The notes under the pieces were generated by a model, which was not told where the DNA came from, ran no database searches, and worked only from the letters and a program-made list of their open reading frames with translations. A DNA stretch of 64,000 nucleotides, taken from Burkholderiales bacterium (lineage in GTDB: Bacteria; Pseudomonadota; Gammaproteobacteria; Burkholderiales; Burkholderiaceae_C). Below, piece after piece: positions 5,429-53,994 of this stretch. The stretch's first letter is position 1. Every line of letters begins with the position of its first letter. The position numbers were made by a program, and so were the translations under genes. The stretch spans positions 124,001-188,000 of the forward strand of contig JACRNC010000003.1 in the NCBI GenBank assembly GCA_016219375.1, written 5' to 3'.

Positions 5429-5504
<76 letters not shown>

Positions 5505-5539
5505 AACGCCCAAGCGCCGTTCGAGTCGATGAAGGACAA

Positions 5540-5615
5540 GTCCCCTTCGTCTAGAGGCCTAGGACACGACCCTTTCACGGTTGTAACAGGGGTTCGAATC
5601 CCCTAGGGGACGCCA
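5540..5615 (+). tRNA. tRNA-Glu(TTC), CCA encoded
   Basis: GTCCCCTTCGTCTAGAGGCCTAGGACACGACC-CTTTCAC-GGTTGTAACAGGGGTTCGAATCCCCTAGGGGACGCCA; anticodon TTC. Confidence 0.96.
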
Positions 5616-5683
5616 AGCTTCCGAGCTTGTCAAGTTTGACGGCACTTGGCTAGTCGCGAGACCGGCGAAGCAGTCACCGACTA

Positions 5684-5760
5684 GGAGTGGTAGTTCAGTC
5701 GGTTAGAATACCGGCCTGTCACGCCGGGGGTCGCGGGTTCGAGTCCCGTCCACTCCGCCA
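5684..5760 (+). tRNA. tRNA-Asp(GTC), CCA encoded
   Basis: GGAGTGGTAGTTCAGTCGGTTAGAATACCGGC-CTGTCAC-GCCGGGGGTCGCGGGTTCGAGTCCCGTCCACTCCGCCA; anticodon GTC. Confidence 0.96.
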
Positions 5761-26993: not shown

Positions 26994-27039
26994 CGTTTGG
27001 TCTGGTTGCGCGGTTTGGCTTGCAGCGGTCGGCGCAAAA

Positions 27040-27278
27040 CAAAGCCCCGGGCGGGCCGCCGCTGGCGCTTCGACGGCTCGCCCTCGCTGCGCGAGGGTGC
27101 CCGCCATGCTCGGCAAGCGGCCGGCGCCTCAGAACTCGCTACGCGCCCGCCTGCGGCGTGCGCTGCGCTCGCACATCCGCGGCGAGTCAGTTCAACGAAG
27201 GCGCTGCGCGCCCCGGCCGCTTGCCTGCGCGTGGCGGCTTCGCCGAGGCGCGCCATCGGCGGCCCGCCCGGGGCTTTG
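27040..27278 (-). repeat. 239-bp palindromic intergenic element, copy 1 (inverted orientation)
   Basis: Perfect 22-bp terminal inverted repeats CAAAGCCCCGGGCGGGCCGCCG / CGGCGGCCCGCCCGGGGCTTTG, with internal 13-bp inverted repeat GGCAAGCGGCCGG / CCGGCCGCTTGCC. Homologous to copy 2. Confidence 0.93.
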
Positions 27279-27464
27279 AGACAGCGGGTGGTGGGCGAGC
27301 CTTGGGAAAATGAACGGCCGTCTCGGGCTCCAGTCGAGCCGCTGAGCCGCTTATCCCGGCGCGGCACCCTTCCAGATCCAGCGTACCGTGCGCACCGTGC
27401 GCAACGCGGCCGAGCGAAGCAAAGGCCCAAGAGAGCCGATGCAGTCCTCACACGGTGGACGCGC

Positions 27465-27703
27465 GCAAAGGCGGGGGCGGCAGCCCGCTGGCGCGCCTCG
27501 GCGACGCCGCCACGCGCAGGCAAGGAGCCGGGGCGCGTAGCGCCTTCGTTGAACTGACTCGTGGCGGATGTCCGAACGCAGCGAACGCGAAGCGTGAGCG
27601 CAGTGAGTTGTGCCACGCCGGCTCCTTGCCGAGCATGGCGGGCACCCTCGCGCAGCGAGGGCGAGCCGTTGAAGCGCCAGCGGGCTGCCGCCCCCGCCTT
27701 TGC
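27465..27703 (+). repeat. 239-bp palindromic intergenic element, copy 2
   Basis: Perfect 30-bp terminal inverted repeats GCAAAGGCGGGGGCGGCAGCCCGCTGGCGC / GCGCCAGCGGGCTGCCGCCCCCGCCTTTGC, with internal 13-bp inverted repeat GGCAAGGAGCCGG / CCGGCTCCTTGCC. Inverted relative to copy 1. Confidence 0.93.
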
Positions 27704-28340: not shown

Positions 28341-28499
28341 CCCCGCAGCGGGCGGCGCGCCAGGCCCTGCCGCCCATTCCCGGCCTGTGAGCCGAGTGCT
28401 CGTCCTCCTATAGTCACAAGCTTTGCCGTGCGCCCGTCGGGTGCCACCGCGGCCGGCCGGCGTTGCCGGGCCGCTGACCAAGACAAGAGGGAGGACTGC

Positions 28500-29570
28500 A
28501 TGACCGAATGGACCGCGCTGCTGGCGCCCGTGTCCGAGCACGACCCGGCGGGGGAGGACCTGTCCTTCTCGCTGGAGTTCGACCAGATCGCCGAGCTGCG
28601 GCGCGCCGACGACCCCAGCCTGAGCCAGGGCGAGTGGGTGGCGGCGCTCAAGGTGGCCGACTGGCCCGGCGTCGCCCAGGCCTGCGAGCGCCTGCTGCGC
28701 AAGCGCAGCAAGGACCTGCGCCTGGCCATGTGGCTGACCGAAGCCTGGGCCTGGCTGCACGGCGCGGCCGGCCTGGCCGATGGCCTGCAACTGACCCACG
28801 GCCTGTGCGCGCGCTACTGGGCCGATGTGCACCCGCGCATCGAAGACGGCGACGCCGACCAGCGCGTGGGCAACTTGAGCGGCCTGCTGCAGCGGCTGGT
28901 GGAGTGGAGCACCGCTGTGCCGGTCATCGCCGGCACGCAGCTGAGCCTGCAGGCCTGGCGCGCCGCGCGTGCGCTGCAGGCCCGTATCGATAGGGGTGAA
29001 GCCGAGCCGCCTGCTGCGGATGGCGACGCCCCGCTGACCCTGCCGGCGCTGGACGCCCGGCTGCGCAACGTGTCGCCCGCGCAGTGGCAAGCCGCCGTGG
29101 CCGACCTGGAGCGCGCCCGGGCCGCGCTGGCCGAGCTGCAGCAGGTGGTCGATGGCCACCTGGGTGCCGAGGGCCCGGGCTTCGTGCAGGCGCGCGAGGC
29201 GCTGGAGCAGGCCGCCGTCGAATGGCAACGTCTGCTGCGCGACGCCGGCGTGCTGGCCGGCCCGGCGACAACCGACGACGCAGGCTCGTCGCCGGCCGAC
29301 GAGGGCGGTGCTGCATCGACGGCTGTGCAGCCCGCCAGCCCGATCGCGCGCGGCCCCATCGCCTCCCGTGCCCAGGCCCTGCAGCAGTTGCGCGAAGTCG
29401 CCGACTACTTCCGCCGCACCGAGCCGCACAGCCCCGTGGCCTACCTGGCCGACAAGGCGGTTCAGTGGGGCAACATGCCGCTGCACGAATGGCTGCGCGT
29501 CGTCCTCAAGGACCCGGGCGCCCTGGCCCATGTGGAAGAGCTGCTGGGCCTGCCGCGGCAAGGTGGCTGA
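28500..29570 (+). CDS. tssA: Type VI secretion system protein TssA
   Basis: LLAPVSEHDPAGEDLSFSLEFDQIAELRRADDPSLSQGEWV (ImpA_N) and C-terminal RAQALQQLREVADYFRRTEPHSPVAYLADKAVQWGNMPLHEWL. Confidence 0.95.
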   Translation: MTEWTALLAPVSEHDPAGEDLSFSLEFDQIAELRRADDPSLSQGEWVAALKVADWPGVAQACERLLRKRSKDLRLAMWLTEAWAWLHGAAGLADGLQLTHGLCARYWADVHPRIEDGDADQRVGNLSGLLQRLVEWSTAVPVIAGTQLSLQAWRAARALQARIDRGEAEPPAADGDAPLTLPALDARLRNVSPAQWQAAVADLERARAALAELQQVVDGHLGAEGPGFVQAREALEQAAVEWQRLLRDAGVLAGPATTDDAGSSPADEGGAASTAVQPASPIARGPIASRAQALQQLREVADYFRRTEPHSPVAYLADKAVQWGNMPLHEWLRVVLKDPGALAHVEELLGLPRQGG

Positions 29571-29716
29571 GCCCTGTGCGGCCGGTGCGCCGCAGGCAGA
29601 TCACGCCGCCGCGTCGGGGCGCCATCGCCCCTGTCGCCCCTGTCGCCCCTGAGCGCCGCCGGCGGTGGACCGAGCCGGCCGGCCCCGCATCCCCAAGCCG
29701 GCCGCTGCCGGGCCGC

Positions 29717-30685
29717 TCACTGCCCGATGCGGAACTCGATGCGCCGGTTGCGGGCGCGGCCGGTGTCCGTGCTGTTGGACGCCACCGGGCGGTCGGGCCC
29801 GACACCGGACACCGTGATGCCACCGGCCGGCACGCCCTTGGCGGCCAGGTAGGCCTTGACCGCGTCGGCGCGGGCCAGGGACAGGGCGATGTTGGACTCG
29901 CGCGAGCCGGAGGAATCGGTGTGGCCGATGACCTCAATGCGGCGGCCGGGCAGCTTCAGCAGTGTGGCGGCCATCTCGTCCAGGATGGCCTGGCCCGCGG
30001 GCAGCAGCTGGGCGCTGGACGGGGCGAACTCGATGATGCGGTTGGCCAGCGTCTGGTCGAGCAGGGCCTGGTCGCTGGTGGCCACGCGCAGCGCGTTGTC
30101 CACGGTGTAGGTCGGGTTCAGCCGGGCCTGGGTGTCGGCGGCGATCTGCCGGCGCACCGCGTCGCTGCCCACCTCGCCCTGTAGGCTGATGCGGTTGCCG
30201 TCGATCTGCATCTGGCCGCGGCCGACCTGGCGCAGCGACGGGTCGATGACGCGCTGCACATGGCCAGCCCAGCCGGGCGGTGCCACGACCGGCCCCACGC
30301 TGAGCTGGTCCTGCACGCGGTCGGCGCCGAAGACGGCGCGCAGCCGGCCGAGCACCGCCGCCTTGGTGGCTTCATCCGGCACGGTGCCGCTGGCCACCAC
30401 CGGCCCGGTGCCGCCGGGCGGCGCCGCAGGCGGGGCGATGGCGGCGGGCGGCGCGGCGGCCGGTGCGATCTGCTGGGCAGAGGCGGGCGCCAGCACCGCG
30501 CCCAGGGCCAGCAGGCTGGTCAGGGCCGCCGGGCGAAGGGCCAGACGGCCGAGGGCCCCAGGCGGGGCGGCGGCCAGGCGCGTGGCGATGCACCCGTTGG
30601 CGATGCGCCCGGTGGCGTCACGGGCGTGATCGGCGGCATGCGGGGCCGGGCGGGCGGCTCGGTACGCGCTCATGCCCGCACCCAT
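29717..30685 (-). CDS. OmpA-like C-terminal peptidoglycan-binding domain protein, T6SS-associated (TagL-like)
   Basis: RIIEFAPSSAQLLPAGQAILDEMAATLLKLPGRRIEVIGHTDSSGSRESNIALSLARADAVKAYLAAKGV...GRARNRRIEFRIGQ. Lies between tssA and tagF. Start 30685 or 30673. Confidence 0.9.
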   Translation of the reverse strand: MGAGMSAYRAARPAPHAADHARDATGRIANGCIATRLAAAPPGALGRLALRPAALTSLLALGAVLAPASAQQIAPAAAPPAAIAPPAAPPGGTGPVVASGTVPDEATKAAVLGRLRAVFGADRVQDQLSVGPVVAPPGWAGHVQRVIDPSLRQVGRGQMQIDGNRISLQGEVGSDAVRRQIAADTQARLNPTYTVDNALRVATSDQALLDQTLANRIIEFAPSSAQLLPAGQAILDEMAATLLKLPGRRIEVIGHTDSSGSRESNIALSLARADAVKAYLAAKGVPAGGITVSGVGPDRPVASNSTDTGRARNRRIEFRIGQ

Positions 30686-30722
30686 GTGGGCCGGCTGCAG
30701 GCGGCGAAGGCGAGGCTTCACA

Positions 30723-31712
30723 TCACTCTCCCAGGAAGACTTCTCGGAACGTGGCCACCGCCTGGCGCAGCGACAGCTGCGGCTCGCGCAGGTAGGTGGA
30801 CAGCTTGCGCACGCCCCAGTCCTGCTCGGCATAGGCCTCCACCCACTGCGCGTCGGTGGCGACGATGCTGTCCGACGCAGTGGGCCGGCCGGTGAGCACG
30901 GTGTGCAGCGTGGCCGGCGACGCCCCGTTGAAGCCGACGACCAGCATGGGCCGCTGCGCCCAGCGGGTGGCGAAGAGCGCCACCTCGAAATCGCCGCGCT
31001 TGAAGAACGGCGTGACCAGGTCGAGCCACAAGGTGGCCAGATGCAGGCGCACCGCCGGGTCGTGGCCCAGCGGCAGCACCAAGGCCTTGTCCAGCCGCAC
31101 CTGGCCCTGGGCCAGCACCGGCTGCAGCAGCAGCCCCAGGGCCAGCAGCGTCTGGCGCAGCGAGCAGCGCGCAGCCGGCGGGGCCAGCAGTGCCTCGGCG
31201 CTGGCCAGGGTCTGCAGGTCGAGGAACTCGGCATAGGCCGCCTGCGGTGCGGCACCGGCGGCTGGCGGGGGCGGCTCGGTGCGCGCCATGGCCTCCTGCA
31301 TGGCCGCGTAGTCGGTGGCAGCGCGGGCGCCGGTGGTCAGCCGCTCCAGGGTGGCCCAGGCGGCGTGCAGCGCCAGCGGCGCGCGCGCCAGCAGGCGCAG
31401 CGGCTCGGCCACCTCGAACGAGGTGGCGGCCAGGAAGGGGAAGCGCCGGCCGGACGCATCCTGGCTGGGCAGCAGGTGCCCGGCCAGCCCCGCCGTGCTG
31501 CGCGTGCCCAGGAAGGCAAACGCGGTGGGCTGCGCGGCATCGAAGACGCCCTTCCACGCCGGGTCGGTGGCCAGTTGCTCCATGGCCTGGGTGAGCCAGT
31601 GGTCCAGCGTGTGGATCAGCGCCGGCTGTTGGCTGCCGCGCACGAAGTCGCCGCGGCAGGGCAGCTTGCCGAAGTAGATCAGCGGCGCCAGGGCGGTGTC
31701 GCGCGCGTTCAT
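30723..31712 (-). CDS. tagF: Type VI secretion system-associated protein TagF
   Basis: LIYFGKLPCRGDFVRGSQQPALIHTLDHWLTQAMEQL...FLGTRSTAGLAGHLLPSQDASGRRFPFLAATSF; overlaps tssM stop. Confidence 0.94.
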   Translation of the reverse strand: MNARDTALAPLIYFGKLPCRGDFVRGSQQPALIHTLDHWLTQAMEQLATDPAWKGVFDAAQPTAFAFLGTRSTAGLAGHLLPSQDASGRRFPFLAATSFEVAEPLRLLARAPLALHAAWATLERLTTGARAATDYAAMQEAMARTEPPPPAAGAAPQAAYAEFLDLQTLASAEALLAPPAARCSLRQTLLALGLLLQPVLAQGQVRLDKALVLPLGHDPAVRLHLATLWLDLVTPFFKRGDFEVALFATRWAQRPMLVVGFNGASPATLHTVLTGRPTASDSIVATDAQWVEAYAEQDWGVRKLSTYLREPQLSLRQAVATFREVFLGE

Positions 31713-34700
31713 ACGGCCTCCGCGTGGCGTTCGCGCCGGGCGGCGGCGGACGCTGCCGTATGAGCCGCATGATGAGCCGCACCGTGGGCCGCCCCTTGGG
31801 CCGCACCATGGGCCGCACCATGGGCCGCCGCATCATCTGCAGCCGACGTCGCATCCGAAACGGCACCCGGCCCGGGCGCGGCCGCATCCGGCCCGCCGAC
31901 CACCAGGGTGGGCAGGCTGGTGCCGCGCAGGCCGTTGCCGCCGCCGGGCGAGCCGGCTGCACCAGAGGCGCCGGCATCGGCGCTGCCCGCCTGGCTGATG
32001 ATGCGCAGCTGCACCGCCACGCTCAGCCCGTCGGCTGACCAGCGCAGCTCGTGCGTGGTGGCGTCCACCTTGCGCCGCTGGGCCGCGCCGATCATCTTCT
32101 CCAGGCCGAAGCGGCCGGGCTCGATGAAGAAGTCCACGCTGCGGCCGTCGAAGGTCACGCCGCGGATGCGCACGCCTGGCTGGCCGGCGCTGCTGGGCCA
32201 GGTGAAGTTGGTCCAGGCGGCCTGCGTGTTGCGAAAGCGCAGGAGCTGGCCGTCGATCTCCACGCTGTACTCGGTCAGGCCGGGCGCGGGCAGCGGCAGG
32301 ATCTGGAAGACCGTCTGCGGCTGCTCACTGGCTGCCGCACCGCCGGCCGCTGCGGCCCCGCCCACCGGCGCCACCCAGGCAGGGAAGCCCGCGGTGAAGG
32401 CCGGCGACAGGCGCACGCCGCGGTCGGCCCAGGTGCGGGCGGTGAGCACGTCGCCGCGGCGCACGACCAGCGGGCCCAGCGTCTTGTCGGTGAAGCGGGC
32501 GATGGCGCCGTCGCTGCCGAATACCGCCGCGATCTCCGCCGGTGCGGCTTCGATCTTGGCGCCGGCATTGAACGGGTACTTGTCGGCCAGCGTGCGCTGG
32601 AAGGGCTCCAGCACCTGCGCGGTCCACACGCGGTTGATCTCGGCCTCGGCCGGCGCGATGGTCACTGCCCAGGCCTGCATCAGCGGACGCACCAGCAGCG
32701 GCCGCAGGGTGGCGCGGGCGCGGTCGCTCATGCCCACCAGCATCTGCTCATCGACCAGCCGCAGCGCGTCGGCCAGCTCCGAGCCGTTGCCCTCCAGCGT
32801 CTGCTGCATCAGCTTGTGCGCGGCGGGGCCGGCGTCGCCCTGGGTCTTGATCTGGTTGTAGCGGGTGCGCACCTTGGAGAGCATCTCCAGGTAGCTGCGC
32901 ATCAGCGTGGGTGCGTTGTCGCGGTTGATCATCAGCCGGCCCAGCGCCTCGAACTCGCGGCCGATCGGGCCCATCGGGATGCCCTTGCCGTCGCCGGTGA
33001 CGTTGATGTTGACGTTGGCCTGCGAGGGCGTGCCGCGCATCAGCGTCTGCTTGATCCAGGCGAAGAAGCCCTGCTGCGCCTTGGCCAGCTGGGCGTTGAC
33101 GAGCGACGGGTTGTCCCAGGAGGTCTCGTCGTAGAGCGTCTGCATCAGCTTGCCGATGGGCGAGGCGGCCGGGTCGCCCAGGCGGTTCATGCGCTGCACC
33201 GCGTCGTCGAAGGACGCGAACTCGGCCACGCTGACGCCCTGCATGAACTTCTGCCACTCGGCGACGTACTCGGTCTTGTACATCTGCGTGAGCGTCTTCT
33301 GCACCTGCTCGGGGCTGCCTTCGAGCGTCAGGTCGTCGCGCAGCGAGGTCTTGAGCACCCAGTCGTCGGCCTGCAGGTCCTTGTAGGCCGCGTCCTTGAT
33401 GGCGCCCTGCACGTACTCCTGCCAGGCGCGGCGGGTGAAGGCGCCGGAGATGGCATGGCTGCCGGCCACCAGGGTCTTGTCGTCGCCGACGATGTTGGCC
33501 ACGGTGACCGGTGCGAAGCGCGTGGCCGCGCGGGCCTTGATCTCGGCATAGACCCGCTCGCGCGCCGGCATGCCGCGCACCACGCGGCGCAGGTTCTCAC
33601 GCGTCTGGTCCAGCACGGCGAGGTTGCTCTCCACCTGCGGGAAGTCGGGCTGTGCCAGCTGCGTGACGGCGAACGACAGGATGGCCTCGGCGCGGCGGAT
33701 CATCTCCTCGCGCGGCATGCTGCCGCGGTTGGCCTCCAGCCACTCGCGCCAGAAGCGGGTGAGCTGGTCGCTCAGGTGGCCGGCCTCCAGGCGCTGGCGG
33801 TCGGCCAGCATCAGGTAGGTCTTGAGCGCGTTGTAGGCGTCCGTGACGTTGGTGGCCGATGCGGCGACGTAGGGGGTGGCGGGCGCGCCCGCCGATGGGC
33901 CGCCCGCCTGCGCGGTGGCGCCGGCCGCCATCGCCTGGGGCAGCGCGGGCAGGGACGCGGCCCCGGCCGATCCAGCGGCAGCCGGTGAGAGGGCAGCCGG
34001 CATCACGCCCGCTGCATCGGCCGGCGTGGCGGCGGCGGTGCGGATCTCCGACCCCTGAGGCTTGAGCTCGCCGGCATGGGCGTTGACCTCGCGCAGATAG
34101 GCCTCGATGGAGCGCGCGGCGGGCTGCAGCATCACCTCGCGCAGGCCGGCGAAGTACTCCGTGCGCACCTTGGCCTCCAGCGCATCGCCCTGGTAGAGGC
34201 CCAGGGACAGGGCCAGCGGGCGGTCGTCGCGCCAGCGCTGCAGCTGCTGCAGCCGGTCCTGCAGGATCTCCAGCGCCTCCAGGCGCGACGCGAGCTCCGG
34301 CCGGCCCTGCTGCAGCCGCACCACCTTGTCGAAGTCGGCCTGCACATTGGCCACCAGCTGGCGATTGCCCAGCGTGGACCAGGTCCAGCCGGCCAGCAGC
34401 AGGCCCAGCAGGGCCACGCTGCCGAAGAAGGTGGCATAGCGCAGCCGGGTCTTGGCCCGGCTGGTGTACTGCCGCACCAGGTTCTTGTCCGCGAAGATCA
34501 CGCGGGAGAACAGGTGGTTGAGGAAGAAGCCGGTCTGGCTGTAGACCGCGGCACTCGCCGGCTCGCTGGGCTCGGCCAGGCCGAAGCGATGGGCCACGCG
34601 CTCGCTGGAGCGGTTGGTGGACACGCCCTCCTGAACCGCGCTGGTGAAGTAGAAGCCGCGGAAGACCGGGCGGAACTGGTAGGGGTTGTCCTCGAACAGC

Positions 34701-35749
34701 GTGGTGATGAAGGTGCGCAGCGCGGGCTTGAGCGTGGCGAACTCCAGCGGAAAGGTCAGCACGCCCGGCGGCACGGCCTCGCCGCGGCGCATGGACAGGC
34801 TGACCACGGAGGACTCCTTGAGGCCCTCGTAGAGCTCGTCGAAGTGGCGGTCGAACTGCGCCACTGCATCGCCGCCGGCGGCGTCGTAGGGCAGGGTCGC
34901 GCCCCAGACCCGGTCGCGCTCGTCGCGGTCGCGGTCCATGAAGAACTCGGCGAAGCCGGCGATCAGGTCGGCCTTGGTGAAGACCACGTACACCGGCGGG
35001 AAGATCTCCAGCTGCTCGGTGATCTCCTGCACGCGCTGGCGCAGCTGCTTGGCCAGCTCGATGGCGAACTCCGGCCGGTTGTTGCCCAGCTCGGCGAGGC
35101 TGGCGGCGATGACGATGCCGTTGACCGGCGCCTTGGGCCGGTGCTTCTTGAGCAGGCCGAGGAAGCCGCGCCATTCCTCGCGGTCTTCTTCTTCCACCGA
35201 GTAGCGGCCGGCGGTGTCCAGCAGGATGCCTTCGGTCGTGAAGAACCAGTCGCAGTGCCGCGTGCCGCCTATGCCCTGGATGATGCTGCCGGTGTTGTCG
35301 GCAAACGGAAAGCGCAGGCCCGACTTGACGATGGCCGAGCTCTTGCCGGCCGCCGGGTTGCCGATGACCATGTACCAGGGCAGCTCGTAGAGCGCGGCCG
35401 AGCCGGACGTCTCGCCGAGCTTGGATGTCTTGATGGTCTTGATGGCCTCCTGCATGCGCGTGCGCAGGGCCTCGATCTCGGCGCGGCGGTCGGCCGCAGC
35501 GCCCTTGACCGCAGCATCGGCCTGCTGCTCGATCACCGCCTCGAACTGCCCGGCCGCACGGCGCGCGCGCCAGCGCTTGACGCCCCAGACGATCAGCCAG
35601 GCCAGCAGGCACAGGCCCAGAGCCACGCCCACCCAGATCATGGCCAGCTGCAGCGTGCTGGCCCCGACGAAGAGGAAGGCCGCCAGCGCGGCGAAGCCCA
35701 GGACGGTGAGCGTGCGGGCGTCGAGGAGGAAGTCGCGGATGCGGCTCAT
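31709..35749 (-). CDS. tssM: Type VI secretion system membrane subunit TssM (IcmF)
   Basis: ELPWYMVIGNPAAGKSSAIVKSGLRFPFADNTG...GTRHCDWFFTTEGILLDTAGRYSVEEEDREEWRGFLGLLKKHRPKAPVNGIVIAASLAELG; two N-terminal TMs plus one central TM. Confidence 0.97.
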   Translation of the reverse strand: MSRIRDFLLDARTLTVLGFAALAAFLFVGASTLQLAMIWVGVALGLCLLAWLIVWGVKRWRARRAAGQFEAVIEQQADAAVKGAAADRRAEIEALRTRMQEAIKTIKTSKLGETSGSAALYELPWYMVIGNPAAGKSSAIVKSGLRFPFADNTGSIIQGIGGTRHCDWFFTTEGILLDTAGRYSVEEEDREEWRGFLGLLKKHRPKAPVNGIVIAASLAELGNNRPEFAIELAKQLRQRVQEITEQLEIFPPVYVVFTKADLIAGFAEFFMDRDRDERDRVWGATLPYDAAGGDAVAQFDRHFDELYEGLKESSVVSLSMRRGEAVPPGVLTFPLEFATLKPALRTFITTLFEDNPYQFRPVFRGFYFTSAVQEGVSTNRSSERVAHRFGLAEPSEPASAAVYSQTGFFLNHLFSRVIFADKNLVRQYTSRAKTRLRYATFFGSVALLGLLLAGWTWSTLGNRQLVANVQADFDKVVRLQQGRPELASRLEALEILQDRLQQLQRWRDDRPLALSLGLYQGDALEAKVRTEYFAGLREVMLQPAARSIEAYLREVNAHAGELKPQGSEIRTAAATPADAAGVMPAALSPAAAGSAGAASLPALPQAMAAGATAQAGGPSAGAPATPYVAASATNVTDAYNALKTYLMLADRQRLEAGHLSDQLTRFWREWLEANRGSMPREEMIRRAEAILSFAVTQLAQPDFPQVESNLAVLDQTRENLRRVVRGMPARERVYAEIKARAATRFAPVTVANIVGDDKTLVAGSHAISGAFTRRAWQEYVQGAIKDAAYKDLQADDWVLKTSLRDDLTLEGSPEQVQKTLTQMYKTEYVAEWQKFMQGVSVAEFASFDDAVQRMNRLGDPAASPIGKLMQTLYDETSWDNPSLVNAQLAKAQQGFFAWIKQTLMRGTPSQANVNINVTGDGKGIPMGPIGREFEALGRLMINRDNAPTLMRSYLEMLSKVRTRYNQIKTQGDAGPAAHKLMQQTLEGNGSELADALRLVDEQMLVGMSDRARATLRPLLVRPLMQAWAVTIAPAEAEINRVWTAQVLEPFQRTLADKYPFNAGAKIEAAPAEIAAVFGSDGAIARFTDKTLGPLVVRRGDVLTARTWADRGVRLSPAFTAGFPAWVAPVGGAAAAGGAAASEQPQTVFQILPLPAPGLTEYSVEIDGQLLRFRNTQAAWTNFTWPSSAGQPGVRIRGVTFDGRSVDFFIEPGRFGLEKMIGAAQRRKVDATTHELRWSADGLSVAVQLRIISQAGSADAGASGAAGSPGGGNGLRGTSLPTLVVGGPDAAAPGPGAVSDATSAADDAAAHGAAHGAAQGAAHGAAHHAAHTAASAAARRERHAEAV
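31759..31831 (-). repeat. 12-bp minisatellite within the 3' end of tssM
   Basis: Units atgagccgcacc/gtgggccgcccc/ttgggccgcacc/atgggccgcacc/atgggccgccgc encode AAHGAAHGAAQGAAHGAAHHAAH. Confidence 0.85.
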
Positions 35750-53920: not shown

Positions 53921-53994
53921 TGGAGCGGGTGAAGGGAATCGAACCCTCGTATGAAGCTTGGGAAGCTGCCGTTCTACCATTGAACTACACCCGC
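53921..53994 (-). tRNA. tRNA-Gly(CCC), CCA encoded
   Basis: Minus strand GCGGGTGTAGTTCAATGGTAGAACGGCAGC-TTCCCAA-GCTTCATACGAGGGTTCGATTCCCTTCACCCGCTCCA; anticodon CCC. One anticodon-stem mismatch. Confidence 0.92.

Follow-up and report, generated by a model that had tools for sequence, protein, structure and literature searches.

The window, a stretch of 64,000 nucleotides from a Burkholderiales bacterium, carries two inverted elements of 239 bp, just where the initial annotation had placed them. Copy 1 occupies 27040-27278 on the minus strand and copy 2 occupies 27465-27703 on the plus strand, so that the RNA sense of the first reads leftwards and that of the second rightwards, in both cases outward from the unit. 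The central spacer of the pair (27279-27464) contains no recognised gene, and a search of the spacer for a sigma-70-like promoter found none. In copy 2, the outer helix P1 joins a 5' arm at 27465-27494 to a 3' arm at 27674-27703 (both plus), a perfect match over 30 bp. The inner helix P4, which is covarying helix 4 of the family, joins GGCAAGGAGCCGG (27519-27531, plus) to CCGGCTCCTTGCC (27618-27630, plus), and both arms were used in the covariation analysis and in the comparison of G-U with A-C mismatches described below. The P4 return is followed by the conserved loop strand GAGCATGGCGGG (27631-27642, plus; family consensus GAGCANCGCAGGG) and by the hairpin CCCTC-GCGCAGC-GAGGG (27645-27661, plus), which is equivalent to family helix 11. 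Similarly, in copy 1, taken in the element sense on the minus strand, the 5' and 3' arms of P1 lie at 27250-27278 and 27040-27068, with one A.G mismatch, and those of P4 lie at 27213-27225 and 27112-27124. The motif GCGCCGACCGCTGCAAGCC (27017-27035, minus) recurs immediately beyond the outer helix in several copies of the host and is a candidate for the end of the unit. One terminator-like match, a GC-rich hairpin with a U-run, falls at the outer arm of copy 1; the region has 2 such matches in total, against 0.7 expected by chance.

With regard to the surroundings, apparent type VI secretion genes, named by eye, start downstream of the element pair and extend over 28428-35749; they include a TssA-like gene at 28428-29570 on the plus strand, and TagF-like, OmpA-like and 1346-aa TssM/IcmF-like genes on the minus strand. 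The tRNA genes of the window (Rfam RF00005) are a cluster of three at 5429-5757 and a single gene at 53924-53994.

By superposing the two copies in the element orientation, agreement is obtained at 200 of 241 alignment columns. The outer arms, 29 positions each, had been described as differing at seven pairs, every one compensated on the opposite arm. These seven compensated pairs are present, but eight pairs differ, the eighth being an A.G in copy 1 against a C-G in copy 2 at arm position 23. The inner 13-bp stem differs at two pairs, both compensated as claimed, and the original count of nine compensatory changes out of nine consequently becomes nine out of ten (7/8 in the outer arms and 2/2 in the inner stem). 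The near identity reported for the segments between the stems is borne out, with one difference in 24 nt and one in 43 nt. Approximately 85 nt between the inner arms, which the initial annotation did not describe, are more variable and also fold and covary.

The folding energy of copy 2 as RNA is -174.8 kcal/mol (z = -9.6 relative to dinucleotide shuffles), and when folded as DNA the same sequence lies 9.5 standard deviations below the shuffles; because the two values are similarly extreme, energy alone cannot tell which molecule matters. Read from 5' to 3', the element consists of P1, a loop strand (consensus CGCCGAGNAGCGCAG), the inner helix P4, a small GC hairpin, a CTGACTCG segment, the long hairpin P5 (TGTYYGARCG, GCAGYGAGTT), the P4 return, the loop strand CGAGCANCGCAGGG, a variable hairpin and the P1 return. 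Each half of the unit is predicted to be multi-branched, with 181 model positions lying inside an additional outer helix. In an alignment of 44 diverse sequences that was not fitted to the structure, 93.3% of the pair cells are paired, compared with 71.6% after shuffling and 32-46% after sliding, and double changes occupy 436 cells, compared with 134.6 and 73-109, respectively. Such double changes are seen in 38 of the 47 pairs. In addition, the two conserved loop strands each contain a single variable base, and these two bases make a standard pair in 177 of 179 distinct helices. The covariation shows that the predicted multi-branched fold is kept on one RNA strand.

The host genome (3.58 Mb) contains 17 clear copies, which fall into two sequence subgroups, together with three weak copies, and same-genus relatives carry diverged homologues in which the stem sequences are different and the loops are the same. 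The gapped pattern of conserved loops was found in at least 120 stretches from named Burkholderiales genera, including Rubrivivax, Variovorax, Aquabacterium, Hydrogenophaga and Rhodoferax among the matches listed. From 44 of these stretches, mostly from other genomes and with copy 2 itself among them, a covariance model (R1) was built; it scores copy 2 at 115 bits (27493-27675, plus) and copy 1 at 87 bits (27067-27251, minus), and gives no other convincing match in the 64-kb window. On the rough E-values of the two models, R1 has members in 40 of 250 genomes of the order (E <= 1e-6), including a shorter version of the element, and a second model (R2), representing the short version, has members in 35 of 291 genomes sampled across the class (E <= 1e-7). 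Two of the checks proposed in the initial annotation, a search for further copies and a covariance model from many of them, have thus been carried out: copies exist in the host and in its relatives, and the arm changes remain compensatory in the larger alignment, so neither of the outcomes named there as fatal, a lack of other copies or uncompensated arms, was encountered. No Rfam 15 model matches the element: a scan of the window at the gathering score gave no hit on it, a scan of the element alone gave none at E values up to 5, and 16 diverse family loci likewise have no match at the gathering score. Plasmids and phages searched with the window element gave no match, nor did a pattern search of IMG/VR.

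Downstream of the short version come a U-rich tract and a conserved hairpin. This hairpin, TTTCTTTGGCGAAGCAAAGAAAG, also occurs alone, with no clear R2 match, in intergenic regions of distant bacteria (loci L313, L315, L316 and L317, from Ilyobacter, Chitinibacter, Pasteurella and Burkholderia), and the lone form is possibly a separate widespread repeat. On the Variovorax paradoxus VAI-C megaplasmid (CP063167.1, locus L314), a divergent pair of the short version, at 950-1090 and 1377-1517, lies between convergent genes. Long open reading frames that run through the element, with FERSEF or QLTHCPCSNAA-like peptides (L103, L108, L138 and others), may carry hypothetical-protein annotation in Burkholderiales.

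In 100 Burkholderiales loci, all 56 pairs of neighbouring copies no more than 1.5 kb apart are divergent, with gaps of 88-726 bp and a modal gap of 103 bp, and of the 126 copies whose flanks are long enough to judge, 98 have a divergent partner within 1.5 kb. What has spread in Rubrivivax sp. ACE_PRO12 is the whole inverted pair, approximately 650 bp with its outer inverted repeats: every full unit combines one X with one Y element at a constant internal spacing, it occurs in both genomic orientations with unrelated flanks, and its outer inverted repeats are approximately 28 bp, near GGNCCGGTTTCGGCGCGTTGCGGACG. In genome G242, outer inverted repeats of approximately 45 bp are found at 2 of 11 copies, and in the host such repeats are suggestive only. 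At the window locus, the HDAC-MscS gene order is kept in 27 same-genus relatives with no element behind mscS, which implies that the insertion in the window is lineage-specific. In two other Burkholderiales families (f50 and f51), copies are mostly single, and the pair is therefore not universal. Overall, the family comprises many dispersed copies, which are specific to lineages and organised as divergent pairs.

These outer repeats, together with the lack of coding capacity in most units, would suit a classical DDE-transposon MITE, in which a resident transposase uses the outer terminal inverted repeats and the inner RNA is a passenger from an ancestral element. On the other hand, no target-site duplication was seen by eye at nine ACE_PRO12 loci or at two G242 units, where the limits of the unit are hard to place exactly; lineages differ in their outer repeats but have the RNA core in common; and an RNA that was only a passenger would have lost its strand-specific fold across such distances. 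We regard an origin of this kind as decidedly unlikely.

Some (-,+) pairs have wide gaps and enclose different, unrelated small genes without assigned function (L109, 4123-4849; L222, 1640-2766; L225, 1650-2809), and further gene-enclosing pairs of the same order are found at L226 (1231-2213) and L108 (794-3255). The enclosed stretch is approximately 0.7-2.5 kb, and its products include a membrane protein of 150 aa in Hydrogenophaga and proteins of 175 aa and 239 aa in other families; the small genes are possibly cargo. An autonomous form of the element was considered for two widely spaced pairs (L103 and L108) and rejected, as these enclose ordinary genes only.

The question of which molecule is selected was approached through the mismatches in the stems. 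Folding of DNA, or repair from arm to arm, would tolerate G.T and the equivalent A.C mismatches equally. When P4 is paired gaplessly between two anchors and scored on Watson-Crick matches alone, the ratio of G-U to A-C mismatches is 64:1 in the long family (103 distinct helices) and 35:1 in the short family (69 distinct helices), and over all helices of 130 cores it is 332:66, while base composition predicts merely 1.3-2:1. With the two arms on the same strand, an excess of G-U could also arise from biased C-to-T mutation; however, singleton variants in 24 X and 25 Y recent copies of ACE_PRO12 comprise 18 G-U and 12 A-C, and a ratio of 18:12 among such recent, nearly neutral variants implies that mutation bias cannot explain ratios of 64:1 and 35:1. 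The preference for G-U over A-C, on one strand only, argues for RNA as the selected fold rather than a DNA cruciform or homogenisation by repair, and this RNA would be the one read from the element-sense strand, that is, plus for copy 2 and minus for copy 1.

The same results bear on upkeep at the level of DNA, whether by hairpin- or cruciform-templated repair, by template switching or by selection of folded single-stranded DNA, of the kind known from REP/RAYT or attC-like systems. Points in its favour are the length and high GC content of the arms, the block-like P4 haplotypes of the Y elements in ACE_PRO12, and the compensatory changes that are also seen in REPINs (PMC3116915). Nevertheless, such processes are strand-symmetric and do not account for stem mismatches that are almost only G-U, and mixed, unrepaired arms are present among the recent copies. 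The RAYT/Y1 partner that had been suggested was not found either: the Y1 transposase domain (PF01797) is absent from the host genome, in a search whose control was positive in E. coli and four others. DNA-level upkeep is therefore very improbable as the main cause of the compensated arms, and from the options left open in the initial annotation, a MITE/REP-like family and a folded RNA are favoured together, whereas folded single-stranded DNA and homogenisation by repair are disfavoured. A separate proposal, that P4 serves as a target-specific guide, was rejected because the recent copies share few P4 haplotypes.

The nearly neutral decay of recent copies, combined with the extreme conservation of the fold over long range, suggests that selection acts mainly on propagation. 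In vertically inherited (orthologous) copies, approximately 14 G-U against 3 A-C mismatches remain after double counting is removed; these are few events, and the ratio leaves room for some function in place. Crude gene calls put the units behind genes, the flanking genes being convergent in 12 cases, codirectional in 18 and divergent in 1, and place the upstream gene in the element sense at 14 of 19 single copies in f50 and f51. Such a context, along with the orthologue ratio and the U-rich tract and hairpin after the short version, would fit a host-serving 3'-UTR or intergenic regulatory RNA that acts in place, for example in termination, mRNA stability or protein capture, with dispersal being secondary. 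However, a pair of terminators serving convergent genes would call for an arrangement other than the strict minus-plus order, the position at the window locus is not conserved among relatives, and the recent ACE_PRO12 copies decay nearly neutrally. A location that does no harm is equally expected of selfish repeats, as in the Pseudomonas repeats, which are likewise described as avoiding promoters (PMC2718517). A primarily host-serving role is thus possible, although we think it rather unlikely.

As to what could move the element, no transposase of its own was found, in line with the initial annotation, and neither an enriched gene family, of transposases or of other proteins, nor a mobilising gene was detected near the copies, where the recurrent frames are ordinary paralogues or spurious frames that run through the element. 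The searches of whole genomes covered Y1 transposase and reverse transcriptase. Reverse transcriptase (PF00078) is absent from 9 of 15 genomes with copies, among them the host, ACE_PRO12 and the single-contig G242, and a reverse transcriptase-dependent (SINE-like) retroelement was rejected on this basis.

Judged from sequence comparison, the family is probably a REPIN/MITE-like, non-autonomous dispersed repeat that depends on a strand-specific structured RNA, with the pair in the window as one unit. The unit would be the inverted pair of minus element, spacer and plus element, and each half would encode a folded RNA of approximately 240 nt, conserved in shape rather than in sequence and read outward from the spacer. 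This RNA would be needed for the element to propagate and would probably be bound by a protein supplied in trans. Finally, copies that come to lie between genes would drift, being tolerated at the 3' ends of genes. Several points count against this reading, namely, the failure to find a promoter-like site in the spacer, a mobilising gene near the copies or a target duplication at the unit ends in two genomes, the single copies in two families, and the orthologue G-U excess, which also fits selection on resident copies. A bolder version, for which we see only a modest chance, is that the family represents a previously unrecognised, RNA-dependent class of mobile elements in Pseudomonadota, whose units would end in two folded RNAs facing outward; these would recruit a putative protein in trans and could bracket cargo. 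If this were true, the gene-enclosing pairs would be cassette-like carriers.

Searches of the open-access literature by topic and by motif letters found no paper on the element, and the family, for which Rfam likewise gave no match, is apparently undescribed. It constitutes a strongly covarying structured RNA that is present in tens of copies in a single genome and distributed across a bacterial class. Should this RNA be the driver of its own dispersal, the family would add a form of RNA-dependent non-autonomous mobility that does without the usual Y1 transposase in the host and without reverse transcriptase in most of the genomes examined for it. Should the RNA instead act for the host, it would be an abundant uncharacterised RNA at gene ends. 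The comparison of G-U with A-C in stems, with recent copies as a control for mutation bias, can also be applied to other palindromic repeats to tell whether selection acts on RNA or on DNA.

Among known systems, HEARO/omega RNA, IS110 bridge RNA and group II introns are strand-specific structured RNAs that occur in many copies, often without a protein gene, and they provide a working analogy for the putative element RNA; the element differs from them in having no Rfam match and no partner gene near its copies, and in not requiring the presence of reverse transcriptase. ERIC, BOX, NEMIS/Correia and bcr-type repeats are dispersed intergenic palindromic repeats of approximately 100-250 bp with compensatory changes. 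The element resembles them in size and palindromic dispersal and matches no Rfam 15 model; to our knowledge, they have other sequences and hosts and are not described as obligate divergent pairs. The R0-R200 repeats of Pseudomonas fluorescens, compared here by description only, share with the element GC-rich inverted repeats, a variable core, a tail-to-tail gene context and rarity between divergent genes (PMC2718517), and differ in that they are not known to have a strand-specific complex fold. Later work treats R0 and R2 as REPINs (PMC3116915). The closest likeness is to REPIN/REP-BIME repeats with their RAYT, which are also non-autonomous, extragenic inverted doublets with lineage-specific amplification, single copies as remnants and compensatory stem changes (PMC3116915, PMC2817692). 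As in REPINs, the inverted doublet is the dispersed unit, being divergent throughout and recurring with different flanks; unlike in REPINs, the halves are multi-branched and roughly 140-240 nt rather than a short REP hairpin, and no RAYT gene accompanies them in the host genome. In kind, therefore, the family belongs with the dispersed inverted-pair repeats exemplified by REPINs (PMC3116915), and the part that differs is a large fold, apparently selected on one RNA strand, in a host without a Y1 partner.
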